Part shown: positions 8,627 to 37,967 of the stretch, in pieces
How positions within the stretch are numbered: the first letter of the stretch is position 1
How the letters are laid out: each line of letters starts with the position of its first letter
Assembly: GCA_020248865.1 (NCBI GenBank)
Contig: JADCGS010000018.1
Span: 1-38,110 of the forward strand
DNA from: Burkholderiales bacterium
GTDB lineage: Bacteria > Pseudomonadota > Gammaproteobacteria > Burkholderiales > Burkholderiaceae_F
DNA length: 38,110 nucleotides
Direction: 5' to 3'
Position numbers and translations under genes: made by a program
The notes under the pieces: model-generated
Database searches by the model: none
Told to the model about the DNA's origin: nothing
Seen by the model: the letters and a program-made list of their open reading frames with translations, nothing else

Positions 8627-8789
8627 GGCCCGGCGCTTGCGGAGCCGGGATCGGCGGCACGGGCGTCGGGGCAGCACCGCGGAGCGGCTGCCGCACCGAC
8701 CGACCGCAACCGATCCGGGAGTATCTTGACGCAATCGCCGCGCCCGCCGCGACCTCGTCTTGATCCCGATCTTCTCACCTCGCTTGCCC

Positions 8790-10445
8790 ATGGACTCCTA
8801 CGACACGCTCTACCGCAACTTCCGCTGGCACGTGCCTCGCGAGTTCAACATTGCCGCGGTGTGCGGCCGGCGCTGGGCTGCCGAGTCCTCGCGGGTGGCG
8901 ATCCAGCACGAGGACGAGCGCGGCCGGCGCTCCACGCATACCTATGCCGCGCTGATGAGCGACGCCAACCGGCTGGCCAATGCGCTGCGCGCCCTCGGCG
9001 TGGTCCGCGGCGATCGCGTGGCCATCGTGCTGGCGCAACGGCCCGAGACCGCCATTGCGCACCTGGCGGTGAGCCAGCTGGGCGCCATTGCGATGCCGCT
9101 GTCGGTCCTGTTCGGGCCCGATGCGCTGGAGTACCGCCTGCAGGACAGCGAGGCGGTGGCCGCCGTCTGCGACGACAGCACCGCCGAAACCCTGGTCGGC
9201 CTGCGGCTGCAGTGCCCGGCGCTGCGCCACCTGATTACCGTGGGGGTGCAGGCCGACGGCGCCCACGAGTGGAGCCGGCTGCTGGCGCGCGCCTCGGCAC
9301 GGTTCACGCCGGTGGCCACCCTGGCCGAGGACCCGGCGGTGCTGATCTACACCAGCGGGACCACCGGCCCCCCGAAAGGCGCGCTCATCCCGCACGCGGC
9401 GCTGATCGGCAACCTGCCCGGTTTCGTCGCCTCGCAGAACTGGTTCCCGCGGCCCGGCGACGTGTTCTGGTCGCCGGCCGACTGGGCCTGGACCGGCGGC
9501 CTGATGGATGCGCTGCTGCCGACGCTGTACTTCGGCTTCCCGATCGTCAGCTGCCGCGGCCGCTTCAGCCCGGACAAGGCGCTGGAGCTGATGCAGCGCC
9601 ATAGCGTGACCAACAGTTTCCTGTTCCCGACGGCGCTCAAGATGATGATGCGCTCGGAGGCCTGGCGCGCACCGCAGGGGCTGCGGCTGCGCGCGATCAT
9701 GAGCGCCGGCGAGGCGGTGGGCAGCGCGGTGTTCGACTGGACCCGCGCCACGCTCGGCGTCACCGTCAACGAGATGTTCGGCCAGACCGAGGTCAACTAC
9801 ATCGTCGGCAACTCGCATCAGCGCTGGGCGGCCCGGCCCGGGGCGATGGGGCGGCCCTACCCCGGCCACCGCGTGGCCCTGGTGGACGAAGACGGGCACG
9901 AGGTGCCGACCGGCCAGGTGGGCGAGGTGGCCATCCATCGCCGCGACATCCACGGCGTGCGCGATCCGATCTTCTTCCTCGGCTACTGGCGCAACGAGGA
10001 GGCCACACGCCGCAAGTTCACCGGCGATCCGGAGCGCTCGTGGTTCCGCACCGGCGACCTGGCCGTGGGCGACGAGGACGGCTACCTCTGGTACCAGGGC
10101 CGCGCCGACGACGTGTTCAAGGCCGCCGGCTACCGCATCGGCCCGAGCGAGATCGAAAACTGTCTGGTCAAGCACCCCGCCGTCGTCAACGCCGCCGTGG
10201 TGCCCAAGCCCGACGCCGAGCGCGGCGCGGTGGTCAAGGCCTTTGTCGTGCTGGCCGACGGCCGCCTTCCGAGCGATTCGCTGGTGGCCGAGCTGCAGGC
10301 GCACGTGCGCGGCAAGCTCGCGCCCTACGAGTACCCCAAGGAGATCGAGTTCCTGGAGTCGCTGCCGATGACCACCACCGGCAAGGTACAGCGGCGCGTG
10401 CTGCGCGAGCTGGAGGCCGAGCGGGCCAGGAAGGCCGGCAGCTAG
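8790..10445 (+). CDS. AMP-binding acyl-CoA synthetase (medium-chain ACS type)
   Basis: A 551-residue adenylate-forming enzyme that activates a carboxylic acid to its acyl-CoA via acyl-AMP. The P-loop YTSGTTGPPKG is at 187-197. The adenine-binding NEMFGQTE, the hinge RTGDLAVGDEDGYLWYQGR, the A8 loop GYRIGPSEIE and the C-terminal catalytic Lys532 in TTTGKVQR are all present. Architecture and length fit the AcsM/medium-chain branch rather than acetate-specific Acs. ATG 8790 is preferred to a TTG ten codons upstream. It converges on the MaoC-family gene with its stop overlapping that gene's stop (CTAG). The acyl substrate is unknown. Confidence 0.87.
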   Translation: MDSYDTLYRNFRWHVPREFNIAAVCGRRWAAESSRVAIQHEDERGRRSTHTYAALMSDANRLANALRALGVVRGDRVAIVLAQRPETAIAHLAVSQLGAIAMPLSVLFGPDALEYRLQDSEAVAAVCDDSTAETLVGLRLQCPALRHLITVGVQADGAHEWSRLLARASARFTPVATLAEDPAVLIYTSGTTGPPKGALIPHAALIGNLPGFVASQNWFPRPGDVFWSPADWAWTGGLMDALLPTLYFGFPIVSCRGRFSPDKALELMQRHSVTNSFLFPTALKMMMRSEAWRAPQGLRLRAIMSAGEAVGSAVFDWTRATLGVTVNEMFGQTEVNYIVGNSHQRWAARPGAMGRPYPGHRVALVDEDGHEVPTGQVGEVAIHRRDIHGVRDPIFFLGYWRNEEATRRKFTGDPERSWFRTGDLAVGDEDGYLWYQGRADDVFKAAGYRIGPSEIENCLVKHPAVVNAAVVPKPDAERGAVVKAFVVLADGRLPSDSLVAELQAHVRGKLAPYEYPKEIEFLESLPMTTTGKVQRRVLRELEAERARKAGS

Positions 10446-10891
10446 ATCGGCGTATCGCTCACCAGCATCCGGCCATGCGCCGTGGCGACCGCCTCGCCGC
10501 GCTGGTTGTGGGCGATCGCCTCGGCCACGACGATGCCGCCGCCCTGCTGCGGCTTGGGCTGCAGCTCGATCACGGTCCAGACGATGGCGAGCTCGTCGCC
10601 GGGGCGCACCGGCGCCAGGAAGCGCGCACCGTGTTCCAGGTAGGCGATCGCGGTGCCGGCGAACACCATGCCGAGCTCGGCGCCCATGAAGGCCGAGGTC
10701 AGCACCCCGTGCAGGATGCGGCCCTTGAAGCGCGAGCGCTGCGCAAACGCCTCATCGACATGCAGCGGGTTGAAGTCGCCGATCAGTTCGGCACCCTCTT
10801 CGAGGTGCCGCAGCTCGACCTTCTGGTGGCGCATGAAGCGCTCGCCGAGCATGACGTCGGAAAAGCGCCGGGGCGGGTCGGGCAGGGCCAT
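10442..10891 (-). CDS. MaoC-family dehydratase (hotdog fold)
   Basis: A 149-residue single-hotdog (R)-specific enoyl-CoA hydratase-like protein. The hydratase signature is present: GDFNPLHVDE with catalytic Asp39 and His44, then FKGRILHG. Such enzymes hydrate trans-2-enoyl-CoA or act on related thioesters. It is tail-to-tail with the acyl-CoA synthetase, the stops sharing CTAG, so the two are not one operon, but both act on CoA thioesters. Confidence 0.87.
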   Translation of the reverse strand: MALPDPPRRFSDVMLGERFMRHQKVELRHLEEGAELIGDFNPLHVDEAFAQRSRFKGRILHGVLTSAFMGAELGMVFAGTAIAYLEHGARFLAPVRPGDELAIVWTVIELQPKPQQGGGIVVAEAIAHNQRGEAVATAHGRMLVSDTPI

Positions 10892-11224
10892 GCCGCATTA
10901 GAGCAGGCCGCGCCGGCGTCGATCCCGCCACCGTCTCGCCGCGCCTTGCAGAGCGAGCAGTCCGCCGCGCCAGGAGCGCGGGCGCGCAGGCACCGTGGCG
11001 CGCACAACGCACCAGACCCATGGCGATCCCCCCGCGCGCCGCAGACCCGGTCGCGCCTCACGTTCCACCCAGGGCAGGAGCCGGTCGGCGCTGCGATCGC
11101 GGGTGCGGGCCAGCGGGACATGGTGCCAGCGAAGCGACGGGTCGCTAGCCCGCGGCGGCAGCCCTTGCCGACGGCCACGACCGCGCAACCGCCATGAACG
11201 AAGTCGCATCGGCGCGGATAAGGT
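10892..11224. other. 333-bp interval without a confident gene
   Basis: This space lies between the MaoC gene start and the end of the next minus-strand gene. A 103-codon minus-strand frame (10898-11209) exists and its middle part looks somewhat protein-like (RWHHVPLARTRDRSADRLL), but it is Arg-rich and has no recognisable motif. I see no RNA structure or repeat. Confidence 0.4.
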
Positions 11225-11623
11225 TCAGCGGCGTGATAGCGCCGAAGATCGCGCATTGGCCTCAGCGATGGCTGCCTTGAGCACCGTATCGCGCTCTTCG
11301 CTCGGGCACAGCACCAATTGCGCCACATACGAGCTGGGCAGGTCTCGGTAGACGCGACGATCCGGGCGGTGCCTGACCTCACGCCAGCCGCGATCCTGCA
11401 GCCAGCGCCAGAGGTCGTTGTCCATGCCGGCCGGCATACTGAACCGCAGATCGCCCAGGGCAATGCGCGCTCCGGGGGCCGGCCTGGCCCGTCGCGGCGG
11501 CACCCGCCGTGCTTTGCGGATGCGAAGAAGGACTCGCAACCGATTCCAGATCGCGGTGCCGAATCCGCTCATCAGCCCTCTCCATGGCGTGATGATGCCG
11601 CCGTCGGCGGGCGGCCGCATCAC
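11225..11623 (-). CDS. Hypothetical protein, 132 aa
   Basis: I do not recognise this family. The C-terminal half (MPAGMDNDLWRWLQDRGWRE, then RRVYRDLPSSYVAQLVL) looks like a compact, conserved domain. The first 50 residues are basic (RKARRVPPRRARPAPGAR). The start at 11623 overlaps the DUF455 gene stop in a 4-bp ATGA, which argues for translational coupling and for a real gene. An internal ATG (MSGFGTAIWNRL) is an alternative start. No signal peptide is obvious. Confidence 0.6.
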   Translation of the reverse strand: MMRPPADGGIITPWRGLMSGFGTAIWNRLRVLLRIRKARRVPPRRARPAPGARIALGDLRFSMPAGMDNDLWRWLQDRGWREVRHRPDRRVYRDLPSSYVAQLVLCPSEERDTVLKAAIAEANARSSALSRR

Positions 11624-12495
11624 GCGGAGGAGCTAGCCGCGTCGCCTCCGCGCGCCCCGTCGCTGCCGGCGATCAAGGCCGACAGCTCGTGCTCCTCGAA
11701 CCCGGCCGCCCGTCGCGCCGCCAGGTTGAACGGCCCGCGCAGCACCGGCGCGCCATACTGGCGGGCGAGCGCCGGGTAGGCTGTGACGGGATCGAGCCCC
11801 CGCGCGGCGCAGCACCAGCGAAACCAGCGGTTGCCGATGGCCACGTGCCCGATCTCGTCTCGCAGGATCACGTCGATGATGGCCGCCGCGGCGTGGTCTC
11901 CTGCGGCGGCGAGCTTGTTGCGTACCGCCGGCGAGGCATCGAGCCCGCGCGCCTCCAGCGTGCGCGGGACGAGTGCCATGCGCGCCAGCACGTCGCCGCG
12001 CGTACGCTCGGCCATCTGCCACAGGCCGTCGTGACCGGGCAGATCGCCGTAGGCCGCACCGAGCGCATGCAGGTGCGCGGACAGCAGCGAGAAGTGCGCG
12101 GCCTCCTCGGCCGCCACCTGCAGCCATTCGCGGTAGTACACCGCCGGCAGCCCGGCAAAGCGCCAGATGGCGTCGAGCGCGAGGTTGATGGCGTTGAACT
12201 CGATATGCGCCAGCGCGTGCAGCAACGCGACACGGCCTTCGCGTGAGCGTACCGGCCGCTGGGGTACCGCGCTCGGCAGCACCAGCAGCGGCCGCGCCGG
12301 CCGGCCCGGCAGGCCCGGCGGTTCGGCCAGCACGCGCTGCGCGTCGGCATCCGGCGCCTGCTGCGCCAGTCGGCGCACGGCTGCCACCTTTGCCCGGGCA
12401 TCGGCGAGCCGCAGCGCGGCCAGGGCGGCACCGCGCATCTCGGTGGCCTCCTCTGGCAGTGGACTGGCAGCCGGCGGACAGTCGGCGGCGTTCAT
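11620..12495 (-). CDS. DUF455 ferritin-like domain protein
   Basis: A 291-residue all-helical protein of the DUF455/MiaE-like ferritin superfamily. Metal-ligand-type motifs are HIEF (97-100), EEAAH (130-134) and DEIGH (213-217), the paired E/ExxH pattern of a di-iron four-helix bundle. Some relatives are tRNA hydroxylases. The function of DUF455 itself is not known to me. It is upstream of, and overlaps by 4 bp, the small hypothetical gene. Confidence 0.85.
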   Translation of the reverse strand: MNAADCPPAASPLPEEATEMRGAALAALRLADARAKVAAVRRLAQQAPDADAQRVLAEPPGLPGRPARPLLVLPSAVPQRPVRSREGRVALLHALAHIEFNAINLALDAIWRFAGLPAVYYREWLQVAAEEAAHFSLLSAHLHALGAAYGDLPGHDGLWQMAERTRGDVLARMALVPRTLEARGLDASPAVRNKLAAAGDHAAAAIIDVILRDEIGHVAIGNRWFRWCCAARGLDPVTAYPALARQYGAPVLRGPFNLAARRAAGFEEHELSALIAGSDGARGGDAASSSA

Positions 12496-12553: not shown

Positions 12554-12634
12554 GGCGGCTCAGGTGGCTCCGGTGGCTCATTTGGCTCCGGTGGCTCAAG
12601 TGGCTCAGGTGGCTCAAATGACTCAGGTGGCTCA
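12554..12634. repeat. Degenerate 9-bp tandem repeat (GGTGGCTCA), 9 units
   Basis: Nine consecutive 9-bp units close to GGTGGCTCA, with changes such as TTTGGCTCC and AATGACTCA. It lies between the DUF455 gene and the GntR-family gene and runs into the last codons/stop of the latter. Because the period is a multiple of three it keeps frames open, but I see no gene using it. Confidence 0.85.
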
Positions 12635-13318
12635 CGCTTCTCGGGCCGGCCCGGCGGCCGGACGCTGCAGTGCCAGCTCGGCGCCGACCCGCTCGCGTGC
12701 CTCGCGCACGTGCGCGCCGATCAGCAGGGCCGCCTCCTTTTCGTCGCGGGCGGCGACCGCATCCAGGATCGCCGCATGCTCGCGCCAGACCTTCTGGGTG
12801 AAGCGCGGCCGCTGCAGCACCTCGCCCATGGAGCGGCGCAGGTGCTGCCAGTGCAACTGCATTGTGTCGACGATGAGCGGATTGCCGCTGGCCTCGTAGA
12901 TCAGGTTGTGGAAGTCGATGTCGGCCTGCAAGGTTGCATGGGCGTCGCCCGCCGCCGCCACCCGCCTGCCCTCGGCCACGAGCTTGCGCCCGCGCTCCAG
13001 CAACGCCGGCGTCATCCGCTGCGCCGCCAGCGCGGCTGCCAGCGGCTCGAGCGCCGAGCGGAACTCGTAGATCGCGTCGAAGCGCGCGCGGTCGACCGGC
13101 GCCACCTGCAGGCCGCGCCGGCCCCGCTCGACCAGGAAGCCCTGCTGCTTGAGCAGACCGAGGGCCGACATCACGGGCTGGCGCGACACCTGCAGTTGCG
13201 CCGCCAGCTCATCCTGGGTGATGCGCGCGCCGGCCGCCAGCGATCCCTCGGAGATCGCGTCGAGGATCCGGTCATAGACCTGGTCGGCCAGGGTGCGCTG
13301 CGGCTTCAGTGATTCCAT
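12632..13318 (-). CDS. GntR-family transcriptional regulator (FadR/FCD type)
   Basis: A 228-residue regulator. The N-terminal winged helix (residues 1-75) has DQVYDRILDAISEGSLAAG and the recognition helix VSRQPVMSALGLL. The C-terminal FCD domain (about 80-215) has conserved acidic/His metal-binding positions (DIDFHNLIYEASGN, EHAAILDAV). FCD regulators usually bind organic acids and repress neighbouring catabolic operons. It is divergent from the hcm operon and separated from it by 229 bp containing a 16-bp palindrome, so it is the obvious candidate to sense 2-hydroxyisobutyrate or its CoA ester. Confidence 0.9.
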   Translation of the reverse strand: MESLKPQRTLADQVYDRILDAISEGSLAAGARITQDELAAQLQVSRQPVMSALGLLKQQGFLVERGRRGLQVAPVDRARFDAIYEFRSALEPLAAALAAQRMTPALLERGRKLVAEGRRVAAAGDAHATLQADIDFHNLIYEASGNPLIVDTMQLHWQHLRRSMGEVLQRPRFTQKVWREHAAILDAVAARDEKEAALLIGAHVREARERVGAELALQRPAAGPAREA

Positions 13319-13383: not shown

Positions 13384-13399
13384 CATATCGTATACGGTA
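13384..13399. promoter_or_regulatory. Palindromic candidate operator for the GntR regulator
   Basis: ATATCGTATACGGTAT is symmetric at 14 of 16 positions around a central GTATAC. FadR-subfamily regulators often bind short palindromes with a TNGTATACNA-like centre. It stands 66 bp before the gntR start and 149 bp before hcmB, in an AT-richer patch of this GC-rich gap. Confidence 0.55.
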
Positions 13400-13451
13400 T
13401 TCAATGCTTCACAAGCAGCATTTGCGCGGACCTCGAGCAGGACTCAAGCAC

Positions 13452-13547: not shown

Positions 13548-13955
13548 ATGACTACCCCGATCCGCGTACTGCTCGCCAAGGTCGGCCTCGACGGCCACGA
13601 CCGCGGTGTCAAGGTGGTCGCGCGCACCCTGCGCGACGCCGGCATGGACGTCGTCTACTCCGGCCTGCACCGCACGCCCGAGGAGGTGGTGAACACAGCC
13701 ATCCAGGAAGACGTCGACGTGCTGGGCGTGAGCCTGCTGTCCGGCGTGCAGCTCACGGTGTTCCCCAAGATCTTCAAACTGCTGGCAGACCGCGGCGCCA
13801 ACGACCTCATCGTCATCGCCGGCGGCGTGATGCCCGATGAGGACGCCGCGGCAATCAAGCAGATGGGGGTGCGCGAGGTGCTGCTGCAGGACACGCCGCC
13901 GCAGGCCATCGTCGACACCATCAAGCAGTTGGTCGCGGCGCGCGGGCCGCGCTGA
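13548..13955 (+). CDS. hcmB: 2-hydroxyisobutyryl-CoA mutase, small B12-binding subunit
   Basis: A 135-residue cobalamin-binding domain. The DxHxxG cobalt-ligand motif is Asp15-Gly-His17-Asp-Arg-Gly20, and the SLLSG and AGGVMPDED loops that hold the nucleotide tail are present. Sequence and length agree closely with HcmB of tert-butyl ether degraders (for example SGLHRTPEEVVNTAIQED). It pairs with the large subunit encoded at 16518-18206 to form the active heterotetramer. It is the first gene of the operon, preceded by a 5' region holding an operator-like palindrome and small repeats. The start is ATG 13548 with GGAGG about 10 bases upstream. Confidence 0.92.
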   Translation: MTTPIRVLLAKVGLDGHDRGVKVVARTLRDAGMDVVYSGLHRTPEEVVNTAIQEDVDVLGVSLLSGVQLTVFPKIFKLLADRGANDLIVIAGGVMPDEDAAAIKQMGVREVLLQDTPPQAIVDTIKQLVAARGPR

Positions 13956-14010
13956 ACCGGCGCGCACTGCGCGCTGCGCGGTCGTTGCCAACCACATCCG
14001 GGAGACGCCG

Positions 14011-15453
14011 ATGCACGGCATGGAGAGCTGGTCCTTTCCCACGGTCTACGACGAGACCTACCTGCCGCGCGGCGACAGCCGCTACTGGTTTGCGGTGCGC
14101 GAGACGATGCCGCCGGCGCAGCGCGAGCAGGCGATCCTCGCGCGGCTGCAGGAGGTCTGCGCCTACGCCTATGCCCATGCGCCCTTTTACCGGCGGCGGT
14201 GGGACGAAGCGGGCTTTCATCCGCGCCAGCTCAAGTCCCTGGAGGACTTCGAGACGCGCGTGCCGGTGGTCAGGAAGGCCGACCTGCGCGCGGCACAGAC
14301 CGCGCATCCGCCCTTTGGCGACTACCTGTGCGTGCCGGACTCGGAGGTCTTCCACGTTCATGGCACCAGTGGCACCACGGGGCGCCCGACCGCCTTCGGC
14401 GTCGGCCGCGCCGACTGGCGCACGATGGCCAACGCGCACGCCCGCATCATGTGGGGCATGGGCCTGCGGCCCGGCGACATGATCTGCGTGGCCGCCGTCT
14501 TCAGTCTGTACCTGGGTAGCTGGGGCGCACTGGCGGGAGCCGAACGCCTGCACGCCAAGGCGTTCCCCTTCGGCGCCGGCGCACCCGGAATGAGCGCGCG
14601 GCTCGCGCAGTGGCTGCACATCATGAAGCCGGCAGCCTTCTACGGCACGCCGAGCTACGCCATCCACCTGGCCGAGGTGGCGCGGGAGGAGAGAATCGAC
14701 CCGCGCGAGTTCCGCCTGAAGTGCCTGTTCTTCTCGGGCGAGCCGGGCGCCAGCGTGCCCGGCGTCAAGGACCGCATCGAGGACGCCTACGGCGCCCGGG
14801 TCTACGACTGCGGCTCGATGGCCGAGATGACCCCGTGGATGAACGTGGCCGGCAGCGAGCAGAGCAACCAGGGCATGCTGTGCTGGCAGGACATCGTCTA
14901 TACCGAGGTGTGCGACCCGGCTACGATGGTGCGCGTGCCCTACGGGCAGCGCGGCACGCCGGTCTACACGCACCTGGAGCGCACCAGCCAGCCGATGATC
15001 CGCCTGCTCTCGGGCGACCTCACGCTTTGGGTCAACGAGGAAAACCCCTGCGGCCGCACCTATCCGCGCCTGCCGCAGGGCATCTTCGGCCGGATCGATG
15101 ACATGTTCACGATTCGCGGCGAGAACATCTACCCGAGCGAGATCGACGCCGCGCTCAACCAGTTGTCCGGCTATGGCGGCGAGCACCGCATCGTGATCAC
15201 GCGCGAGGCGGCCATGGATGAACTGCTGCTCCGGGTGGAACCCGATGACGGCATCCACCGCGCCGGCGGCGCGGCGATCGAGCGCTTCGGCGGCGAGGTC
15301 GCGCATCGCCTGCAGGCCGTGCTCGGCATCCGCACCAAGGTCGAGATCGTCGCGCCCAACAGCATCCCGCGCACGGACTTCAAGGCGCGCCGCGTGATCG
15401 ACGACCGCGAGGTGTTCCGCTCGATGAACGCGCTGCTGCAGAAGAATGACTGA
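14011..15453 (+). CDS. hcl: 2-hydroxyisobutyrate-CoA ligase (phenylacetate-CoA ligase family)
   Basis: A 480-residue adenylate-forming ligase of the PaaK-like type. The AMP loop is HVHGTSGTTGRPT (115-127). The C-terminal hinge region RIDDMFTIRGENIYPSEID follows the phenylacetate-CoA ligase pattern. Its place between hcmB and meaH matches the ligase that activates 2-hydroxyisobutyrate in Aquincola and Methylibium, where the order is also hcmB-ligase-meaB-like-hcmA. Specificity is inferred from context; the family by itself is broad. ATG 14011 has GGGAG 8 bases upstream. The frame is open before it but lacks similarity there. Confidence 0.85.
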   Translation: MHGMESWSFPTVYDETYLPRGDSRYWFAVRETMPPAQREQAILARLQEVCAYAYAHAPFYRRRWDEAGFHPRQLKSLEDFETRVPVVRKADLRAAQTAHPPFGDYLCVPDSEVFHVHGTSGTTGRPTAFGVGRADWRTMANAHARIMWGMGLRPGDMICVAAVFSLYLGSWGALAGAERLHAKAFPFGAGAPGMSARLAQWLHIMKPAAFYGTPSYAIHLAEVAREERIDPREFRLKCLFFSGEPGASVPGVKDRIEDAYGARVYDCGSMAEMTPWMNVAGSEQSNQGMLCWQDIVYTEVCDPATMVRVPYGQRGTPVYTHLERTSQPMIRLLSGDLTLWVNEENPCGRTYPRLPQGIFGRIDDMFTIRGENIYPSEIDAALNQLSGYGGEHRIVITREAAMDELLLRVEPDDGIHRAGGAAIERFGGEVAHRLQAVLGIRTKVEIVAPNSIPRTDFKARRVIDDREVFRSMNALLQKND

Positions 15454-15531
15454 CACCCGGCCGCGGCGGCCCGACGCGCGGCCGCGCACGCCCGCCGGCG
15501 CCGCGGCGACCGGCTGCCCAGCGAGCGCTGC

Positions 15532-16521
15532 GTGACCTACGTCCCCTCCCGCGACCTTCTGGCGCAGGCCCTGGCCGGCAGTAGCCGCGCCGCGGGCCGG
15601 CTCATTTCGCGCGCCGAGCAGGGCGCCGAGGAAGCGCGCCCCACGCTGGCCGAGGTGTACCGGCGCGCCGGCAGGGCGCACCGCATCGGGCTGACGGGCG
15701 TACCGGGCAGCGGCAAGTCCACGCTGGTGTGCCGGCTTGCCGCGTCGCTGCGCGCGCAGGGCCGCCGGGTGGGTATCGTCGCCATCGACCCGTCGAGCCC
15801 CTACTCGGGCGGCGCCATCCTGGGCGACCGCGTGCGCATGACCGAGCTGGCCAACGACCCCGGCGTCTTCATCCGCAGCATGGCCACGCACGGCGCCACC
15901 GGCGGCATGACGCATGCGGCGCTCGACGCCGCCGACATCCTCGATGCGGCCGGCTTCGACGTCATCATCATCGAGACGGTCGGCGTGGGCCAGGACGAGG
16001 TGGAGATCGCCAAGGCCGCCGATACCACCATCGTCGTGTCGGCCCCCGGCCTGGGCGACGAGATCCAGGCGATCAAGGCCGGCATCCTGGAGATCGCCGA
16101 CATCCACGTCGTCAGCAAGTGCGACCGCGATGACGCCGACCGCACCATCACGGACCTCAAGCAGATGCTCACGCTCGGCGCGCTCACGGCGCTGCGCGAC
16201 GGGCAAGGAAGGCCGCTGTGGACCATCCCCGTGATCGGCTTGAGCTCTTACACCGGCCAGGGCATCGACGAGTTGCTCGCCGCCATCGGCCGGCACGGCG
16301 CGACCCTGGCTGCTACGGCACTGGGCGCGCAACGGCGCGAGCGCGTGGCCGCCTTCCGCCTGGCCAAGACGGCCGAGACGCTGCTCGTCGAGCGATTCAG
16401 GCGGGCCGCGCAAGCGCTGGCCCTGCCCCTTTCCCAGCAACTGAGCCGGCGCGACACCGATCCATATTCGGCGGCGCGCTCGCTCATCGATCAGACGATC
16501 GCCAAGGAGTTTTCGCCATGA
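15532..16521 (+). CDS. meaH: MeaB/ArgK-type G-protein chaperone of the mutase (MeaH)
   Basis: A 329-residue SIMIBI GTPase that protects and reloads B12-dependent acyl-CoA mutases. Walker A is GVPGSGKST (56-64). Switch and base motifs are IDPSSPYSGGAILGDR, ETVGVGQDE (148-156), and SKCD (195-198) where most relatives have NKxD. The GTG start at 15532 is 78 bp after hcl in very GC-rich DNA without a better ATG. It overlaps hcmA by 4 bp (ATGA), so mutase large subunit and chaperone are translationally coupled. Confidence 0.92.
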   Translation: MTYVPSRDLLAQALAGSSRAAGRLISRAEQGAEEARPTLAEVYRRAGRAHRIGLTGVPGSGKSTLVCRLAASLRAQGRRVGIVAIDPSSPYSGGAILGDRVRMTELANDPGVFIRSMATHGATGGMTHAALDAADILDAAGFDVIIIETVGVGQDEVEIAKAADTTIVVSAPGLGDEIQAIKAGILEIADIHVVSKCDRDDADRTITDLKQMLTLGALTALRDGQGRPLWTIPVIGLSSYTGQGIDELLAAIGRHGATLAATALGAQRRERVAAFRLAKTAETLLVERFRRAAQALALPLSQQLSRRDTDPYSAARSLIDQTIAKEFSP

Positions 16522-18206
16522 ACGGTCTGGATCCAAAGACCATCGACCGCCTCGAGCACCAGACGCGCGACTGGGAGGACAACGAGGTTGCAGCCTTTCT
16601 CAAGAAGCAGTCCGAACGCAAGGAACGGTTCTTCACGATCGGCGACTTCCCGGTCAAGCGCGTCTACACCGCGGCCGACCTGAAGACCACGCCCCTGGAG
16701 GATATCGGCCTGCCCGGCCAGTACCCGTTCACGCGCGGCCCATATCCGACGATGTATCGCAGCCGCACCTGGACGATGCGGCAGATTGCCGGATTCGGCA
16801 CCGGCGAGGACACCAATCAGCGCTTCAAGTACCTCATCGCGCAGGGCCAGACCGGAATCTCCACCGACTTCGACATGCCCACGCTGATGGGCTATGACTC
16901 GGACCACCCGATGAGCGACGGCGAGGTCGGGCGCGAGGGCGTGGCGATCGACACGCTGGCCGACATGCAGGCGCTGCTGGCGGACATCGACCTGGAACAG
17001 ATCTCGGTGTCGCTGACGATCAACCCGACCGCCTGGATCCTGCTGGCAATGTACGTGGCGCTGGCCGAGCAGCGCGGCTACGACCTGAACAAGCTGTCGG
17101 GCACGGTTCAGGCCGACATCCTCAAGGAGTACATGGCGCAGAAGGAGTACATCTACCCGATCGCGCCGAGCGTACGCATCTGCCGCGACATCATCACCTA
17201 CTGCGCGCGCCACATGAAGCGCTACAACCCGATCAACATCTCCGGCTACCACATCAGCGAGGCGGGCGCCTCGCCGGTGCAGGAGGCCGCCTTCACGCTC
17301 GCCAATCTCGTTGTCTACGTCGAGGAAGTGCTGAAGACGGGCATGCCGGTCGACGAGTTTGCGCCGCGGCTGGCCTTCTTCTTCGTGAGCCAGGCCGACT
17401 TCTTCGAGGAGGTGGCCAAGTTCCGCGCGCTGCGTCGCTGCTACGCCAAGATCATGAAGGAGCGGTTCGGCGCCCGCAACCCGGACAGCATGCGGCTGCG
17501 CTTCCACTGCCAGACGGCGGCCGCCACGCTGACCAAGCCGCAGTACAAGGTCAATATCGTGCGCACCGCGCTGCAGGCCCTGAGCGCCGTCCTCGGCGGC
17601 GCGCAGTCGCTGCACACCAACGGCTACGACGAGGCCTTCGCGATCCCGACCGAGGAGGCGATGAAAATGGCGCTGCGCACGCAGCAGATCATCGCGGAGG
17701 AGACCAACGTCGCCAGCGTGATCGACCCGCTGGGCGGCAGCTACTACGTCGAGGCGCTGACCACCGAGTACGAGAAGAAGATCTTCGAGATCCTGGGCGA
17801 GATCGAGCGGCGCGGCGGCACCATCAAGCTGATCGAGCAGGGCTGGTTCCAGAAGCAGATCGCCGACTTTGCCTACGAGACGGCGCTGCGCAAGCAGTCG
17901 GGGGAAAAGCCTGTCATCGGCGTCAACCGCTTCGTCGAGAAGGAAGGACGGGCCGACATCGAGATCCACCCTTACGACCAGACCACTGCCGACCGCCAGA
18001 TCGCCCGCACGCAGCGCGTGCGCCGCGAGCGCGACCCGGCTCTCATCGAGCGGCTGCTCGACCAGCTCGTCGCCGTGGCGCAGAACGAGAACGACAACAT
18101 CATGCCGATCACGATCGAGCTCGTGAAGCACGGCGCGACCATGGGCGACATCGTCGAGAAGCTCAGGGGCATTTGGGGGACGTATCGGGAGACGCCGGTG
18201 TTCTAA
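16518..18206 (+). CDS. hcmA: 2-hydroxyisobutyryl-CoA mutase, large catalytic subunit
   Basis: A 562-residue TIM-barrel, substrate-binding subunit of a B12-dependent mutase that interconverts 2-hydroxyisobutyryl-CoA and (S)-3-hydroxybutyryl-CoA. Two residues decide the call: Ile90 in WTMRQIAGFG (Tyr in methylmalonyl-CoA mutase, Phe in isobutyryl-CoA mutase) and Asp117 in GISTDFDMP. Both keep the numbering of the Aquincola tertiaricarbonis enzyme. The length and the C-terminal GIWGTYRETPVF also fit. The B12 domain is absent, as expected, because HcmB supplies it. AAGGAG lies 9 bases before ATG 16518. Confidence 0.95.
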   Translation: MNGLDPKTIDRLEHQTRDWEDNEVAAFLKKQSERKERFFTIGDFPVKRVYTAADLKTTPLEDIGLPGQYPFTRGPYPTMYRSRTWTMRQIAGFGTGEDTNQRFKYLIAQGQTGISTDFDMPTLMGYDSDHPMSDGEVGREGVAIDTLADMQALLADIDLEQISVSLTINPTAWILLAMYVALAEQRGYDLNKLSGTVQADILKEYMAQKEYIYPIAPSVRICRDIITYCARHMKRYNPINISGYHISEAGASPVQEAAFTLANLVVYVEEVLKTGMPVDEFAPRLAFFFVSQADFFEEVAKFRALRRCYAKIMKERFGARNPDSMRLRFHCQTAAATLTKPQYKVNIVRTALQALSAVLGGAQSLHTNGYDEAFAIPTEEAMKMALRTQQIIAEETNVASVIDPLGGSYYVEALTTEYEKKIFEILGEIERRGGTIKLIEQGWFQKQIADFAYETALRKQSGEKPVIGVNRFVEKEGRADIEIHPYDQTTADRQIARTQRVRRERDPALIERLLDQLVAVAQNENDNIMPITIELVKHGATMGDIVEKLRGIWGTYRETPVF

Positions 18207-18283: not shown

Positions 18284-20017
18284 ATGCCCTCCGCCCCTCC
18301 GCCTCTGACCCGCGACACCGTTGCAGGAGTCATTGCGCGCTGCCTGAAGGCGCGCGGCATCGACACGGTCTTTGCGCTGTGCGGCGGTCACATCATGCCG
18401 ATCTGGATGCGGCTCGATGCCGAAGGCATCCGCATCGTCGACGTGCGCGACGAGCGCGCGGCGGTTTACATGGCGCACGCGCATGGCCACATGGCGGGCG
18501 GTCTCGGCGTGGCGCTGGTCACGGCCGGGCCCGGCGTCACCAACGCGATGACCGGCATTGCCAACGCGCATGTCGCCCGGGCGCCGGTGCTGGTGCTGTC
18601 CGGTGTGCCGCCGCAGCCGCAGGAGAACCGCGGCGCGCTGCAGGACATCGTCCATACCGACCTGGTGCGCTCGCTGACGCGCTATGCGCGGACCGTGCGC
18701 GATCCGGCCCTGGTGCTGCAGGAGCTCGACGAGGCAATGGCGCGGGCATGCGGCCACGGCGGCGAGCCGGGACCGGTGTACCTCGACTTTCCGACCGACA
18801 CGCTGCGCGCCACGGTGCCTGCGGCCTTGCAGCGCGACGAGCTCTTCCTCGCCCGGCCGGCGCCGCGGCCGCAGCCGGAGCCGGCCGCCGTGGCCTGCGC
18901 GGCGGAACTGCTGTGGGGAGCGCGCCGGCCGCTGGTGATCAGCGGTCGCGGCGCGCGCGGCGCCGGGCGCGAGCTCGTCGCGCTGCTCGATGCCCTCGGC
19001 GCGCCCTACCTGGACACCGGAGAAGGCAAGGGCCTGGTGCCCGACCGACATCCATCCGTGGTGGCGGCGATGCGGGGCAGCGTGATGAGCGAGGCCGACG
19101 TCGTGCTCACCGTCGGCCGCCGCCTCGACTTCCAGCTCGGCTATGGCTCGCCGGCCATCTTCGGCAACGCCCAGTTCGTGCGCATCAGCGATGCCCCGAG
19201 CGAACTGCGCGACAACCGCCGCGGTGCGGCTGAGGTGCTGGCACCGGTCGATCTGGCGCTGACCGCACTGCTGGCAGCGGCGCGCGGCCGCACGCCGGCC
19301 ATCGACCGGGCCTGGGCGTACGCCCTGCGCGAACGCCATGAAGAGCGCGCTGCCCGGCTGCAGGCGGCCATGCGCAGCGCACCGGCGGACGCGCAGGGCC
19401 TGATGCATCCCAACACGCTGTTGGCCGCCGTGCAGGACGCCATCGGCACCGCTGCCGTGGTCGTGGCCGACGGCGGCGACTTCCTGGCGTTTGCCCGCGT
19501 CGGCCTGCAGTGCGGCGCGTATCTGGACCCGGGCTCGCTCGGCTGCATTGGGATCGGTACGGCCTTCGGCATCGGCGCCCAGTTGGCCACGCCGGGCCGC
19601 ACGGTGGCCGTGCTGACGGGCGACGGCGCCTTCGGCTTCAATGCGATGGAGATCGACACCGCCGCCCGCCACCGCGTGCCGATCCTGATCGTGGTGGCCA
19701 ACAACGGCGCCTGGCAGATCGAGGTGCATGACCAGACCCTGAACCACGGCAAGGTCGTCGGCACCCGCCTGCAGGACGCCGATCATGCGGCCATGGCGCG
19801 TGCCTTCGGCCTGTATGGTGAGCGCGTTGAGCGCGCCGTCGACCTGCCGGCCGCGCTTGCCCGGGCGATGGCACGCCTGCCGGCTCTGGTGGACGTCAAG
19901 GTCTCGCCCGCGGCGATGTCGTCCGACGCCAAGACCGGGCTCGCCTGGGTTCCCGACCTGCAGCCCCTGGCGGCATGGGACGAGGCGGAGCGGGCCTGGC
20001 GGTCATCGGCCGGTTGA
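18284..20017 (+). CDS. Thiamine-pyrophosphate-dependent enzyme (acetolactate synthase / 2-hydroxyacyl-CoA lyase superfamily)
   Basis: A 577-residue three-domain TPP enzyme: N-terminal Pyr domain with catalytic Glu57 (DVRDERAAVYMAH), central domain (about 200-335) and C-terminal PP domain with the TPP/Mg motif starting GDGAF at 446 and ending in NN at 473-474. The family includes acetolactate synthases, 2-oxoacid decarboxylases and 2-hydroxyacyl-CoA lyases. Sequence alone does not decide between them. The start at ATG 18284 has AAGGA 8 bases upstream. It lies 77 bp after hcmA on the same strand, so a role in 2-hydroxyacid or 2-hydroxyacyl-CoA metabolism is likely but inferred. Confidence 0.8.
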   Translation: MPSAPPPLTRDTVAGVIARCLKARGIDTVFALCGGHIMPIWMRLDAEGIRIVDVRDERAAVYMAHAHGHMAGGLGVALVTAGPGVTNAMTGIANAHVARAPVLVLSGVPPQPQENRGALQDIVHTDLVRSLTRYARTVRDPALVLQELDEAMARACGHGGEPGPVYLDFPTDTLRATVPAALQRDELFLARPAPRPQPEPAAVACAAELLWGARRPLVISGRGARGAGRELVALLDALGAPYLDTGEGKGLVPDRHPSVVAAMRGSVMSEADVVLTVGRRLDFQLGYGSPAIFGNAQFVRISDAPSELRDNRRGAAEVLAPVDLALTALLAAARGRTPAIDRAWAYALRERHEERAARLQAAMRSAPADAQGLMHPNTLLAAVQDAIGTAAVVVADGGDFLAFARVGLQCGAYLDPGSLGCIGIGTAFGIGAQLATPGRTVAVLTGDGAFGFNAMEIDTAARHRVPILIVVANNGAWQIEVHDQTLNHGKVVGTRLQDADHAAMARAFGLYGERVERAVDLPAALARAMARLPALVDVKVSPAAMSSDAKTGLAWVPDLQPLAAWDEAERAWRSSAG

Positions 20018-20230: not shown

Positions 20231-21289
20231 ATGAATCGAACCGACCTCAACATCCTGTCCTACGACGACGCCACGCCGCTGCTGGCGCACGCACCACGCC
20301 ACGCTGCGCCCGGCCATGCCCTCATCGGGCGCATCACCTGCGGGGTGGACCTGTGGCTGGGCGCCGGTGCCACCATCCGCGCCGACGGCCACTTCGTGCG
20401 CATCGGCAACGACCTGCAGATGGGGCGCGGCGCCACCATCCACATTGCGCACGACGTGTATCCCACGCTGGTCGGCGACCACGTGACCGTGGGCGCCAAC
20501 GCGGTCGTGCATGCCTGCGACATCGGCGCCGGCTGCGTGATCGAGGACGAGTGCGTGGTGCTCGACGGCTGCGAGCTGGAACCGGCGCTGCTGCTCGAAG
20601 CCGGCAGCGTGGTGTTTCCACGCACCCGGCTCGAAGCCGGCTACGTCTACGGCGGCAGGCCGGCCAAGCCCGTGCGCCGGCTAGCGCCCGGCGAGCTCGA
20701 CGCCCGGAGGCGCCTGCTGCGCTCCTGCAACGAGGCCGACGACAACGGCTGGGACGAGCCGGCGCCCGCCAACCTCGCGCCCGCAGCCTTCATCGCCAAC
20801 ACGGCGATCGTGCGCGGCGTGCTGCACGCCGCGGCCGACTCGAGCATCTGGTACGGCTGCCGCCTCGATGCGGGCCCGCCCGGCCTGGGTGGGGCGATCG
20901 TGCTGGGCGCACGCAGCAACGTGCAGGACAACTCCGTGCTCACCGCCACGGCCGGCCAGCGGATCGTCATCGGCGCCGACACCACCATCGGCCATAACGT
21001 CACCCTGCCCGCCTGCAACGTGGGCGACCGCTGCCTGGTCGGCATCGGCTCCAAGCTCGGCGCCGGCACCGTGGTCCGGGACGACGTGTTCATCGCGGCC
21101 GGCGCCACCACCGAGCCCGGACAGGTACTGGACAGCGGGCACTTGTACGGCGGCCAGCCGGCGCGCCCGTTGGCCCCGCTCGACGAGCGCAAGCGCGCGC
21201 TGGTGATGGGCACCATCCCCGTCTACTGCGAGTACGCGCGCGAGCTCAAGCGCCAGCAGGCTGCGCGCGAGGGCGGCCCGGCGCGATGA
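20231..21289 (+). CDS. Tandem gamma-carbonic-anhydrase-fold (left-handed beta-helix) protein
   Basis: A 352-residue protein made of two gamma-CA-type hexapeptide-repeat domains in one chain (about 1-155 and 185-330). Each ends in the family's YGGxPAxPxRxLxP type segment (GYVYGGRPAKPVRRLAP and GHLYGGQPARPLAPLD). The zinc histidines are distributed: domain 1 keeps the positions equal to Cam His81 (His71) and His122 (His94) but has Ala89 for His117. Domain 2 has Thr238 and Pro260 for the first two but keeps His255 for His117. Ordinary gamma-CA family proteins are about 175 residues with one domain. The stop overlaps the hslO start (ATGA). The substrate is unknown. Confidence 0.8.
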   Translation: MNRTDLNILSYDDATPLLAHAPRHAAPGHALIGRITCGVDLWLGAGATIRADGHFVRIGNDLQMGRGATIHIAHDVYPTLVGDHVTVGANAVVHACDIGAGCVIEDECVVLDGCELEPALLLEAGSVVFPRTRLEAGYVYGGRPAKPVRRLAPGELDARRRLLRSCNEADDNGWDEPAPANLAPAAFIANTAIVRGVLHAAADSSIWYGCRLDAGPPGLGGAIVLGARSNVQDNSVLTATAGQRIVIGADTTIGHNVTLPACNVGDRCLVGIGSKLGAGTVVRDDVFIAAGATTEPGQVLDSGHLYGGQPARPLAPLDERKRALVMGTIPVYCEYARELKRQQAAREGGPAR

Positions 21290-24747: not shown

Positions 24748-26337
24748 CTACTCGATCTCCTCGTACAGCGGCAGCGTCAGGAACTCGGCAAAGGCCTCCT
24801 GCGTGCTCATCTGCTCGAAGATCGCAGCGGCGCGGTCATAGGCCGGGCTGCTGCCCGCCACGGCCTTGACCTTGGCGAGCTCCTCGGGAATCAGTCCCCG
24901 GACCAACTCGGCGGTCACCTTGCGGCCGTCGTCGAGCTGGCCCTTGGGCGAGCGGATCCACTGCCAGACCTGCGAGCGACTGATCTCGGCGGTGGCGGCG
25001 TCCTCCATCAGGTTGTGGATCGGCACGCAGCCGTTGCCGTCGAGCCAGGCCCCCAGGTAGTGGATGCCGACGTTGATGTTCATGCGCAGGCCGGCCTCGG
25101 TGATCGGGGCCTCGGGCTGGAAGTTCAGCAGGTCCGCCGCGGTCACGGCCACGTCGGGACGCTGCTTGTCGAACTGGTTGGGGCGGTCGCCCAGCACCTT
25201 GACGAACTCCTCCATCGCGATCGGCACCAGGCCCGGATGCGCCACCCAGCCGCCGTCATAGCCGTCGGTGGCGTCGCGCTGCTTGTCGGAGCGCACGCCG
25301 GCCAGTGCGGTTTCGTTCTTGACCGGGTCGTTCTTGATCGGGATGAGCGCACTCATGCCGCCGATGGCCGGCGCGCCGCGCTTGTGGCAGGTCTTGAGCA
25401 GCAGCAGCGCGTAGGCGCGCATGAAGGGGGCGGTCATCGTCACCCGGGCGCGGTCGGCCAGACAGAAGTTGCGGTCGACCTTGAACTTCTTGATGCAGCT
25501 GAAAATGTAGTCCCAGCGGCCGGCATTCAGGCCCGCCGAGTGTTGGCGCAGCTCGTACAGGATCTCCTCCATCTCGAAGGCCGCCAGGATGGTCTCGATC
25601 AGCACGGTGGCCTTGACCGTGCCCTGCGGGATGCCCAGTTCGCTCTGCGTCAGCACGAAGATGTCGTTCCACAGCCGCGCCTCCAGGTGCGACTCCATTT
25701 TGGGCAGGTAGAAGTAAGGCCCCGAGCCTCGCGCCAGCAGCGCCCGCGCGTTGTGGAACATGAACAGCGCAAAGTCGAAGATGCCGCCCGACACCCGCTC
25801 GCCGTCGACGGTCACGTGCTTCTCGTCCAGGTGCCAGCCGCGCGGCCGCACCACCAGGGTGGCGACCTTGTCGTTGAGCCGGTAGGTCTTGTCGCCCTGC
25901 GTGAGCGTGATGGTGCGGCGGATCGCCTCCATCAGGTTGATCTGCCCGGTGATCTGGTTGTCCCAGTTGGGCGAGTTGCTGTCCTCGAAGTCCGTCATGT
26001 AGGCGTCGGCCCCGGAGTTCAGCGCGTTGATGATCATCTTGCGCTCGACCGGCCCGGTGATCTCGACGCGGCGGCACTGCAAGTCACGGGGTACCGGAGC
26101 AACTTTCCAGTCGCCCTCGCGGATCGACCGGGTCTCGGGCAGGAAATCCGGCCGCTCGCCGGCATCCAGCCGCCGGGTGCGCTCGGTGCGCAGGGCCAGC
26201 AATTGCCGGCGGCGCGGCTCGAACTGGCGGTGCAGCTTGGCCACCAGCGCCAGCGCTTCGGGCGTGAGGACCTTCTCGAATCCCGGCTTGAGCGCCGTGC
26301 GGATCTCGATGCCGGCGGGAATGCCTTGCAGAGCCAT
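24748..26337 (-). CDS. aceB: Malate synthase A
   Basis: Condenses glyoxylate with acetyl-CoA to malate, the second glyoxylate-shunt step. The 529 residues are the normal length of the A isoform. The signature [14 protein letters not shown] starts at 113, with catalytic acidic residues there and in [15 protein letters not shown], and the later [16 protein letters not shown] 26337 with AAGGAG 6 bases upstream fixes the start. The haloacid dehalogenase gene is 52 bp upstream on the same strand. Confidence 0.95.
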
Positions 26338-26389
26338 TGCTACTCCTTGGAAAACGGATGGGTGATTGCTCGGTTTCGAGGCTGGCCCG

Positions 26390-27091
26390 TCAGCGGCCGC
26401 CCTCGGCAAAGTAGTAGGTCGCCGCGTCGGCGAGCGAGGCGCCACGGGCGACCTCCTGGCCGAGTCGCTCGGCCGGAGCGCCGTTGCGGTTGACCCAGAA
26501 GGCACGGTAGCCGTACCACTGGGCGCCCACCGCGTCCCAGCCGTTGCTGGAGACGAACAGGATCTCGCCCGCCGGGTGCCGCAGGCTGCGCGGGCCCAGC
26601 TCGTAGACGGCCGGCGCCACCTTGTAGGCATGAACCGCGTCGGCCGACAGGACGAGGTCGAAGTACTCGCCGATCCCGGCGCCATGCAGCGCGTCTTCCA
26701 GCAAGCCGGGATCGCCGTTGGAAAGCACGCCCAGGGTCACCCCGCCGTCCTGCAGCCGGCGCAGTGCAGGCACCACGTCGGCAAAGGCAGCGAGCCGGGT
26801 GTACTCGTGCATCAGCAGGCCGCGCGCCGCACCGTCCATGTCGAGCCCGAGGGCTTCGCCCGCGTAAAGCAGCGCCTCCTCGGTGACCTGGGTGAAGGGC
26901 GCGTAGCGGCCACCCAGGGCGCGCAGGCGCGTGTATTCGAGCTGCTTGTCGCGCCACAGTTGCGACAGCCGCCGACCCTGGCCCGGAAACAACTGCTCGG
27001 CGCGCGCCTCGACCGAGTGGACGTCGAGCAGCGTGCCGAAGACGTCGAAGAGGATCGCGCGCAAAGGCGCAGAAGAGGCGTTGGCAGACAT
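26390..27091 (-). CDS. Haloacid dehalogenase, type II (L-2-haloacid dehalogenase-like)
   Basis: A 233-residue HAD hydrolase with the nucleophile Asp16 in FDVFGTLLD, the substrate-carboxylate segment LWRDKQLEY with Arg47, Ser124-Asn125, Lys157 and SSNGWDAVG with Asn183/Asp186. This residue set is typical of (S)-2-haloacid dehalogenases, which turn 2-haloacids into 2-hydroxyacids such as glycolate. Glycolate is one oxidation from glyoxylate, the aceB substrate, which fits the shared strand and 52-bp spacing. Other phosphatase-like roles are not excluded. Confidence 0.85.
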
Positions 27092-36953: not shown

Positions 36954-37967
36954 TCACACGACGTGAGCACCGCAGGAACTCGGTTCGAACACTTCGACTT
37001 CACCTCCCGGCTGGTACGTCACGCCTCGGCGCAGGATCACCCAGGACACGCGCACCCGCTTGGCCGCCACCGCCACGGTGGCCTTGTTCGGGTGCATGCG
37101 GGTCTCCGGCCCCGTGATCCACGGGCCCCCGGCGTGTTGTTCGCGCTCGAGATGCGCGCGCACCGAGCGGCCGCCATGGCAGAACAACCAGCGCAGGTCG
37201 GTGTTGCCACGTTTGCTGATGCCCAGCAGCCTGGGCAGGCCGCCGGTGCTGTGCTGCCGGGGCACCAGGCCGAGCCAGGCCGCGAGATCCCGCCCGCGGC
37301 CGAACTCGCTGGCGTTGCCCACCGCCGCCACCAGGGCCGTCGCGGTGAGCGGGCCTACCCCGGGGACGGCCAGCAGGCGCCGGCAGCGTTCATCGGCGCG
37401 AGCGACGGCGGCCGGTTGGGCGTCGATGTGCTGCGCCTGTTGCTCGGCCTCGCGCCAGCAGCGCAGGCACTGACCCAGCATGTCGCGGCGCGCCTGAGTG
37501 AGCCCGAGGTCCTCGCGCGCCGGCAGCTCGGGCCGCTTGCTTGCCATGGTCTTGCGGCCTCGGCCCACAGCCACCCCGCACTCGAGCAGCGTCGCGCGCG
37601 CCTGGTTGATCAGCGCCGTGCGCTGCTGCACCAGGCGCGAGCGCATGCGGTGCAGCATCTGAATGTCCTGCTGCTCGATGGTCTTGACGCCGACCGTGCG
37701 CACCGTGGGCGGCAGCGCCGCCTCGGCGATGGCCTGGGCGTCGTTGTAGTCGTTCTTCTGCCCCCGCACGAAGGCGCGCACATCGGCCGCCACCAGCAGC
37801 CGCACGCAACGCCCTTGTTCAGCGAGCCTGCGCGCCCGATCGTGTGCGCCCGCGCACGCCTCCATCGCGATCGCCTCGACGTCCAGCCGCAGCAGCGTGG
37901 ACAGCACCGTCGCGCGTGTGCAGCGCGCCTTGAACGCCACGGCGCCAGACTGATCGAGCGCCACCAC
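36954..37967 (-). CDS. IS110-family transposase
   Basis: A 337-residue DEDD transposase. The N-terminal RuvC-like part has KNDYNDAQAIAEAALPPTVR. The C-terminal transposase_20 part has LLAVPGVGPLTATALVAAVG and AAWLGLVPRQHSTGG, then KRGNTDLRWL. The GTG start used here (37967) probably cuts the true N-terminus. The frame upstream reads GGDDYSDAGGVVALDQ, which supplies the first catalytic Asp of the family, but no in-frame ATG, GTG or TTG close by was found. IS110 elements lack terminal inverted repeats, so ends are not defined. Confidence 0.85.
   Translation of the reverse strand: MVALDQSGAVAFKARCTRATVLSTLLRLDVEAIAMEACAGAHDRARRLAEQGRCVRLLVAADVRAFVRGQKNDYNDAQAIAEAALPPTVRTVGVKTIEQQDIQMLHRMRSRLVQQRTALINQARATLLECGVAVGRGRKTMASKRPELPAREDLGLTQARRDMLGQCLRCWREAEQQAQHIDAQPAAVARADERCRRLLAVPGVGPLTATALVAAVGNASEFGRGRDLAAWLGLVPRQHSTGGLPRLLGISKRGNTDLRWLFCHGGRSVRAHLEREQHAGGPWITGPETRMHPNKATVAVAAKRVRVSWVILRRGVTYQPGGEVEVFEPSSCGAHVV

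Follow-up and report, generated by a model that had tools for sequence, protein, structure and literature searches.

In print, the mutase and lyase routes of 2-hydroxyisobutyrate (2-HIBA) breakdown figure mostly as alternatives. The lyase was described in an actinobacterium without the mutase, in a paper whose available portion mentions Methylibium petroleiphilum PM1 once, for its mutase operon (PMC7176365), and the only "lyase" mentioned in the available portion of PMC2847961 is another enzyme. In Mycolicibacterium sp. ELW1, ibc cluster 2 is described, in the available part of PMC13188929 (2026), as holding ligase, mutase, chaperone, GntR regulator, and thiamine lyase together, with the suggestion that the lyase may be a minor route. 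Because the lyase stands in this ELW1 mutase cluster and a comparable combination is known from Desulfococcus, the pairing of lyase and mutase is not wholly new; in the literature searched, it was not seen for Methylibium, other betaproteobacteria, or haloarchaea. Here, we analyzed the window, a stretch of 38,110 nucleotides (positions 1 to 38,110 of contig JADCGS010000018.1, Burkholderiales bacterium, assembly GCA_020248865.1), in which an operon for 2-hydroxyisobutyryl-CoA mutase (HCM) is followed by a lyase gene and by a gene for two fused gamma-carbonic-anhydrase (gamma-CA)-like domains. In our favored interpretation, to which we assign a probability of about 0.68, the genes between 12632 and 21289 are a single unit under GntR control, which would activate 2-HIBA to its CoA ester and offer this ester two exits, a B12-dependent mutase and a thiamine-dependent lyase. 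At the level of sequence, the gene set, gene order, residues, and orthology of the unit are established. The mutase operon itself is a further member of the known HCM type; lyase, mutase, and fused gamma-CA together make it a variant that was not seen in the literature searched. The genes and codons on which this interpretation depends are as follows.

13548 to 13955, plus strand: hcmB, B12-binding small subunit of the mutase (135 amino acids; 249-bit match to 4r3u_C)
14011 to 15453, plus strand: hcl, 2-hydroxyisobutyrate-CoA ligase (480 amino acids from the ATG at 14011; 954.6 bits to 6hdw_A, a 2-hydroxyisobutyryl-CoA synthetase)
15532 to 16521, plus strand: meaH, MeaB-type G-protein chaperone (GTPase) with a GTG start (TIGR00750, 308.8 bits, cut-off 240.75; PF03308)
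16518 to 18206, plus strand: hcmA, large subunit of the mutase (562 amino acids; 1098 bits to 4r3u_A; tree placement)
16785 to 16787, plus strand: codon of HcmA Ile90 (computed position)
16866 to 16868, plus strand: codon of HcmA Asp117 (computed position)
18284 to 20017, plus strand: 2-hydroxyacyl-CoA lyase of the actinobacterial (AcHACL) type, thiamine diphosphate dependent (NF058623, 780.7 bits, cut-off 600; 7pt1_A, 589.7 bits)
20231 to 21289, plus strand: fusion of two gamma-CA-like domains, domain 1 with two of the zinc histidines (H71 and H94) and domain 2 with the third (H255)

An original prediction, made from the letters of the window alone, had read positions 13548 to 18206 as a complete operon in the order hcmB-hcl-meaH-hcmA, as in Methylibium. 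The open reading frame coordinates confirmed the four genes and the 4-base overlap of meaH with hcmA (16518 to 16521), and the same order was found on the M. petroleiphilum PM1 plasmid RPME01; hcmB and hcl are separated by 55 bases. The large and small HCM subunits are encoded separately and are both near the solved enzyme 4r3u, and the identities proposed for HcmAB, Hcl, and MeaH are supported by the PDB matches, by scores below the cut-offs of other mutase families, and by tree placement. The presence of hcl, meaH, and a GntR gene around the mutase genes is the layout given for HCM operons in the available text of PMC7176365. The word "complete" held for the gene identities but not for the extent of the operon: two further co-directional genes, for the lyase and the two-domain gamma-CA-like protein, follow hcmA and belong to the operon because they are conserved there. 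HcmA aligned without gaps to the 4r3u mutase over residues 2 to 562, so that the residue numbering agrees up to the tag of the construct, and the predicted Ile90 and Asp117 were indeed computed at 90 and 117, the numbering of the Aquincola enzyme. We take this pair to be the HCM signature.

The Pfam and TIGR domain names of these genes are those of methylmalonyl-CoA mutase (MCM), and the copies in PM1, Agrobacterium, and Xanthobacter carry that name, as had been foreseen for automatic annotation. Nonetheless, it is highly improbable that the operon is the ordinary MCM or isobutyryl-CoA mutase (ICM) operon that such names imply. HcmA scored below the NCBIfam equivalog cut-offs of MCM (576.6 against 876) and IcmF (327.6 against 1500), it matched the best MCM structure with 443 bits compared to 1098 bits for HCM 4r3u, and hcl adjoins the mutase genes. 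Moreover, in a midpoint-rooted tree of 32 HcmA rows, from which 18 others had been removed as duplicates of loci present, the window protein was placed outside the MCM and ICM rows, in a clade of 21 rows (support, 99/98) that also holds Methylibium PM1, Xanthobacter Py2, and Agrobacterium EL101. The four MCM-like rows of this tree were so labeled by identity and residues, the sole ICM-like row is the genome's own paralogue on a very long branch, and Aquincola stands outside the 32 rows. Thus, the alignment and tree proposed with the original prediction set HcmA in the HCM clade, and an ordinary MCM or ICM operon was rejected on the equivalog scores, the difference in bits, and the tree.

Ile90/Asp117 occurred in all 21 rows of the HcmA clade and in 23 of the 32 rows overall, including two haloarchaeal mutases that share a cluster with a lyase. 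Phe90/Ala117 was found in two other haloarchaeal mutases and in the genome's own IcmF-like paralogue, Tyr90/Ala117 in four rows from the order with 46-47% identity, and Val90/Asp117 in a Sinorhizobium/Shinella pair. The two residues therefore serve as a discriminator when taken together; Asp117 alone is not diagnostic, since the Sinorhizobium/Shinella pair has it beside Val90 in another gene context. On those Shinella and Sinorhizobium plasmids (L133 and L134), a 58-59% identical mutase lies beside genes for an aminotransferase, an enoyl-CoA hydratase, and an AMP-ligase, and probably serves as a B12 acyl-CoA mutase on another substrate. For the window, HcmAB is predicted to isomerize 2-hydroxyisobutyryl-CoA, and use of 2-HIBA by the organism is a fair prediction.

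The gene after hcmA is the only one of this genome above the NF058623 cut-off, below which all 14 control genomes scored (0/14 above). Its residues E57, L119, Q120, I479, and E480 correspond to E65, L127, Q128, I492, and E493 of AcHACL, and the alignment reaches residue 598 of the 7pt1 construct, thereby covering the C-terminal lid. For AcHACL, E493 is described as the acid/base catalyst and Q128 as a substrate contact, and substrates are held to C5 or smaller by L127, I492, and the C-terminal lid (PMC8760513, available part). Across 86 lyase rows, the Glu, Gln, and Leu residues were invariant, and the Ile was present in 85; the equivalents of the size-limiting L127 and I492 were kept in 12/12 HCM-linked lyases. 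The window lyase is of a type that would be expected to release acetone from 2-hydroxyisobutyryl-CoA.

To place this pairing among other genomes, we compared loci or records (numbered L) with the genomes of an order sample (numbered G; the window genome is G000). Lyase loci came from a scan of named genomes, of which the best 80 of 520 loci were considered, with fetched stretches of at most 10 kb and many short contigs. Genes of an HCM-type operon stood beside eight of these 80 loci (L010, L011, L020, L023, L024, L027, L035, and L084), which is a lower bound because of the length of the stretches and the often short contigs. At most of the other loci, the stretch showed a different AMP-ligase and often a GntR gene but lacked hcm genes; this commoner context (L002, L003, and many of L012 to L089) comes from many Burkholderiales and some alphaproteobacteria. 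Three of five inspected plasmid matches (PM1, Halomarina, and Natrinema) carry both lyase and mutase, and on the Halomarina (L004) and Natrinema (L005) plasmids lyase-hcl-hcmA-hcmB-meaB form one run, with Ile90/Asp117. Altogether, lyase and mutase-operon genes lay in one cluster on 13 contigs or records (the window, G387, G396, L010, L020, L023, L024, L027, L035, L084, PM1, Natrinema, and Halomarina), where L011 is the same contig as G387, L023 and L035 are near-identical, L084 shows hcmB and hcl only, and L024, PM1, and the haloarchaea have other genes between lyase and hcmA. In the order sample of 399 genomes, 16 matched HcmA at 1e-150 and 12 of these 16 are HCM (75-100% identity); 10 of the 12 have a lyase gene at some place in the genome.

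In the scheme that we favor, the GntR protein, most likely relieved by a pathway metabolite, would open the operon, and Hcl would convert 2-HIBA to 2-hydroxyisobutyryl-CoA. HcmAB, kept active by MeaH, would rearrange this ester to 3-hydroxybutyryl-CoA with no loss of carbon, and the lyase would cleave part of it to acetone and formyl-CoA. Alternatively, the lyase might act on the C5 homologue 2-hydroxy-2-methylbutyryl-CoA, yielding a ketone and formyl-CoA, as AcHACL also takes the C5 ester. Formate would finally be oxidized by a selenocysteine-type formate dehydrogenase encoded elsewhere in the genome: its alpha-subunit frame (L147:4213-7293, G000:C24) contains an in-frame TGA in the motif ARI-stop-HAPTVASLAPTFGRGAMTN and, in pieces, falls under the TIGR01591 cut-off. 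We assume that this frame resembles E. coli FdnG. The fused gamma-CA-like protein, a predicted zinc protein whose site would be complete only where the domain-1 and domain-2 faces make contact, would most likely act on stray acyl-CoA esters as PaaY does.

Two other arrangements of the same enzymes have to be weighed. The substrates could be divided, with the mutase serving 2-HIBA only and the lyase serving bulkier C5 2-hydroxy-2-methyl acids from isoprene, isoamylene, or tert-amyl compounds. This is consistent with the nearly equal rates at which AcHACL cleaves the C5 and C4 esters (PMC7176365, available part), with the retention of the C5-limiting L127 and I492 in all HCM-linked lyases, and with the different AMP-ligase and lack of hcm genes within the stretch at most of the 80 loci; however, the operon's acid ligase is the C4-type Hcl and no C5-specific gene was recognized in the operon, which leaves such a division doubtful. 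A reversal of the pathway, in which the lyase would join acetone and formyl-CoA and the mutase would follow, is quite unlikely. According to the available portions of the sources, AcHACL is reversible (PMC8760513) and a lyase working together with a mutase has been proposed as the acetone route of Desulfococcus and Desulfosarcina (PMC7888143 and PMC7176365), and the Natrinema plasmid places the lyase first, then ligase and mutase. On the other hand, the acid-activating Hcl encoded in the same operon has no place in an acetone route, Desulfococcus is described without Hcl (PMC7176365, in part), and no formyl-CoA transferase over the cut-off was found in this genome. A search of this genome for acetone carboxylase (PF08882) gave no match; the control genomes were likewise without a match.

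The last gene of the operon encodes the gamma-CA fusion, which scored under the NF050158 cut-off (141.6 against 250). H71, H94, and H255 were invariant in 21/21 distinct fusion rows, the window included, the others being 35-63% identical to it. Domain 1 retains zinc ligands 1 and 3, with ligand 2 replaced by Ala, Arg, or some other residue, and domain 2 keeps ligand 2 only; by comparison, single-domain gamma-CAs of the same order had all three ligands within one domain in all eight readable cases (of nine). In gamma-CAs, one zinc histidine comes from one subunit and two come from the adjacent subunit (PMC7567890, available part). From the complementary loss of ligands and this subunit geometry, it follows that contact between a domain-1 face and a domain-2 face would be needed for a full zinc site, and we infer that these faces do meet in the fusion and complete the site. 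In a Foldseek search with a structure model of the fusion, the best 50 of 602 matches were all gamma-CA or hexapeptide chains; many of the listed alignments span both halves with a root mean square deviation above 10, so that the composite site is neither shown nor excluded by them.

A profile search for the fusion in the 399 genomes, with at most five candidates scored per genome, gave full-length matches in 16 genomes at E values of 1.7e-133 or better; after a gap, the next matches, at 6e-48 and weaker, were partial and nearly all of single-domain length. In 16/16 order genomes that have it, the fusion lies in a mutase cluster. It is present in all 12 HCM genomes, directly after hcmA in nine and after the lyase in three, and also occurs on the PM1, Xanthobacter, and Agrobacterium plasmids. 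In the other four genomes, which are all hcm-less and of genus g24, the fusion comes immediately after a mutase gene that is fused in a single frame; the two of these four mutases that were scored reached 1901 and 1910 bits for IcmF (cut-off, 1500). This link to IcmF is probably not independent of hcm, because IcmF lies upstream of hcmB in five of six HCM genomes of the same family (directly in G246 and G276); in the sixth, G305, the contig begins at hcmB. These five are loci L107, L109, L110, L111, and L112 of family f19, where IcmF is on the same strand as hcm and either directly upstream or within about 5 kb. The hcm genes may thus have been lost from between IcmF and the fusion, leaving the link as a remnant; the split histidine pattern, intact in 4/4 g24 fusions, speaks against decay. 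Beyond the order, a cobalamin adenosyltransferase gene adjoins hcmA instead of the fusion in three HcmA-bearing genomes of the class (67-68%), and neither gene is beside hcmA in two of the phylum (57%).

PaaY, a trimeric zinc-containing enzyme, hydrolyzes several CoA esters, among them an inhibitory by-product and acetoacetyl-CoA (PMC4498308, available part). By gene context and residue pattern, the fused protein is likely a helper of the 2-HIBA pathway. More tentatively, the tandem gamma-CA with its composite zinc site could be an undescribed standard accessory of HCM and IcmF that removes or proofreads acyl-CoA esters, in an operon that would drain 2-hydroxyisobutyryl-CoA by radical rearrangement and thiamine cleavage at once. 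No paper joining a gamma-CA with an acyl-CoA mutase was seen in the literature searched.

Several observations weigh against the two-exit unit. The lyase is inside the operon in just 3 of the 12 HCM genomes (window, G387, and G396). In G148, G216, and G246 it belongs to a GntR-ligase-lyase cluster of its own, which lies 13-16 kb upstream of hcmB; in G084, G276, G305, and G386 it is on contigs other than that of hcm, and it was not found in G132 and G381. It is also present in three of the four hcm-less g24 genomes; these counts cover the 12 HCM and four g24 genomes, with the background rate of the order outside the count. Outside the order, both the lyase and the fused gamma-CA are lacking next to hcm in the three genomes of the class that bear HcmA. 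Furthermore, 3 of 11 mutase operons of the order lack hcl. Growth of ELW1 on 2-HIBA requires cobalt even though lyase and mutase share a cluster in this strain (PMC13188929, available part), and therefore the lyase cannot replace the mutase there. In this genome, the search for formyl-CoA transferase yielded CoA-transferase relatives only, with at most 193.2 bits against a cut-off of 504.2. As for the fusion, its structure model is of medium confidence (mean pLDDT, 68), and gene position and residues are the only basis of its proposed role.

The operons without hcl (L110, L111, and L113, from G276, G246, and G305, respectively) belong to one genus with genomes of about 1.8-1.9 Mb and consist of hcmB-meaH-hcmA-gamma-CA only; there, a different ligase or source has to supply the CoA ester. 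In a lyase tree built by a quick method, the label "hcm within stretch" changes four times, and well-supported branches force two of these changes; rows such as L013, L015, L054, and L084 are labeled unlinked only since the stretch or contig ends before hcmA. Gains and losses are indistinguishable in this tree, so that the lyase-hcm link is either old and was broken several times or was gained more than once.

The regulatory features of the proposed unit lie upstream of hcmB.

12632 to 13318, minus strand: GntR/FCD-family regulator, divergent from the operon (Pfam GntR and FCD)
13385 to 13400, no strand assigned: candidate GntR operator ATATCGTATACGGTAT, a palindrome with the core GTATAC at 13390 to 13395

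The divergent GntR gene has the same position in PM1, Xanthobacter, Agrobacterium, and several relatives. The GTATAC core was present in six of the nine divergent GntR/hcmB gaps examined, against a rough chance expectation of 0.03 to 0.06 per gap, and was absent from the gaps of PM1, Agrobacterium, and Xanthobacter among these nine; the palindrome is thus a putative operator of GntR. Upstream, at 8760 to 12495, lie genes for an AMP-ligase (MbcS-like), MaoC, and DUF455; in L010, L011, and L020, the hcm operon is likewise preceded by the AMP-ligase and DUF455 genes, and in L011 alone also by MaoC. Elsewhere in the window are malate synthase A on the minus strand (24748 to 26685), of use when C2 units are the growth substrate, and, close to the end, an IS110-family transposase (36954 to 37967). 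An NCBIfam scan of 20 other window open reading frames (E value, 1e-10) identified only malate synthase A, a LysR regulator, and the IS110 transposase, and many of these 20 frames are probably not genes.

The original prediction had further suggested that the organism might use tert-butyl compounds. A comparison with the likely tert-butanol hydroxylase of PM1 gave two partial matches only in this genome, at 27-29% identity, and the diiron hydroxylase family PF02332 was not found in the genome (positive control detected; assembly 94.8% complete). We take the PM1 Rieske gene to be MdpJ. Because close MdpJ-like and PF02332 genes are lacking, tert-butyl use is unsupported within a search that covered the Rieske hydroxylase and PF02332 but not AlkB-type ether monooxygenases or diol dehydrogenases.

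Methacrylate building blocks can be reached from 2-hydroxyisobutyryl-CoA, a compound that is also linked to a widespread modification of proteins and about whose natural sources and routes little is known. A mutase-lyase operon would be a natural node of acetone, formyl-CoA, and 3-hydroxybutyryl-CoA, in betaproteobacteria and haloarchaea, that is directly testable. The fused gamma-CA gene was present in every examined HCM genome of the order and offers a new way to study how this pathway is supported; the zinc site of its product is apparently shared out between the two domains.

Compared with known systems, the window is close to the hcm operon of Aquincola tertiaricarbonis L108, the comparison having been made through PDB chains only. 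It shares with M. petroleiphilum PM1 (RPME01) the hcmB-hcl-meaH-hcmA order and the divergent GntR gene, as well as a downstream lyase-like gene (65% identical) and a gamma-CA-like gene; PM1 differs by two cobalamin adenosyltransferase genes, a small hypothetical gene, and a 3-hydroxybutyryl-CoA dehydrogenase gene among or after these genes, and by Rieske oxygenase genes nearby, none of which is in that place in the window. Actinomycetospora chiangmaiensis DSM 45062 also encodes Hcl, together with a lyase that falls into the same NCBIfam family and has identical catalytic residues; however, it has no mutase genes, and its cluster contains diol and aldehyde dehydrogenase genes (PMC7176365, available part). 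The ELW1 cluster, by contrast, is on an actinobacterial plasmid, spans 37 kb, and comprises multiple operons; it was compared by description, its lyase sequence being uncompared, and the available main text contains neither "carbonic anhydrase" nor "hexapeptide" (PMC13188929). The acetone clusters of Desulfococcus biacutus and Desulfotomaculum arcticum likewise combine a thiamine enzyme with a B12 mutase, but that of D. biacutus lacks Hcl, its mutase is RcmAB-like, and its lyase is unrelated, sharing only 22% identity with the DSM 45062 enzyme (PMC7176365, available part); in D. arcticum, a "carbonic anhydrase/acetyltransferase" is listed among acetone-induced proteins (PMC8084838, available part). 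Finally, the plant mitochondrial gamma-CA heterotrimer also has one complete zinc site between unlike subunits, its gamma-CAL lacking two of the three histidines (PMC7567890, available part). In plants, these are separate chains in complex I, whereas the window carries two complementary half-sites fused in one chain and encoded in a mutase operon.

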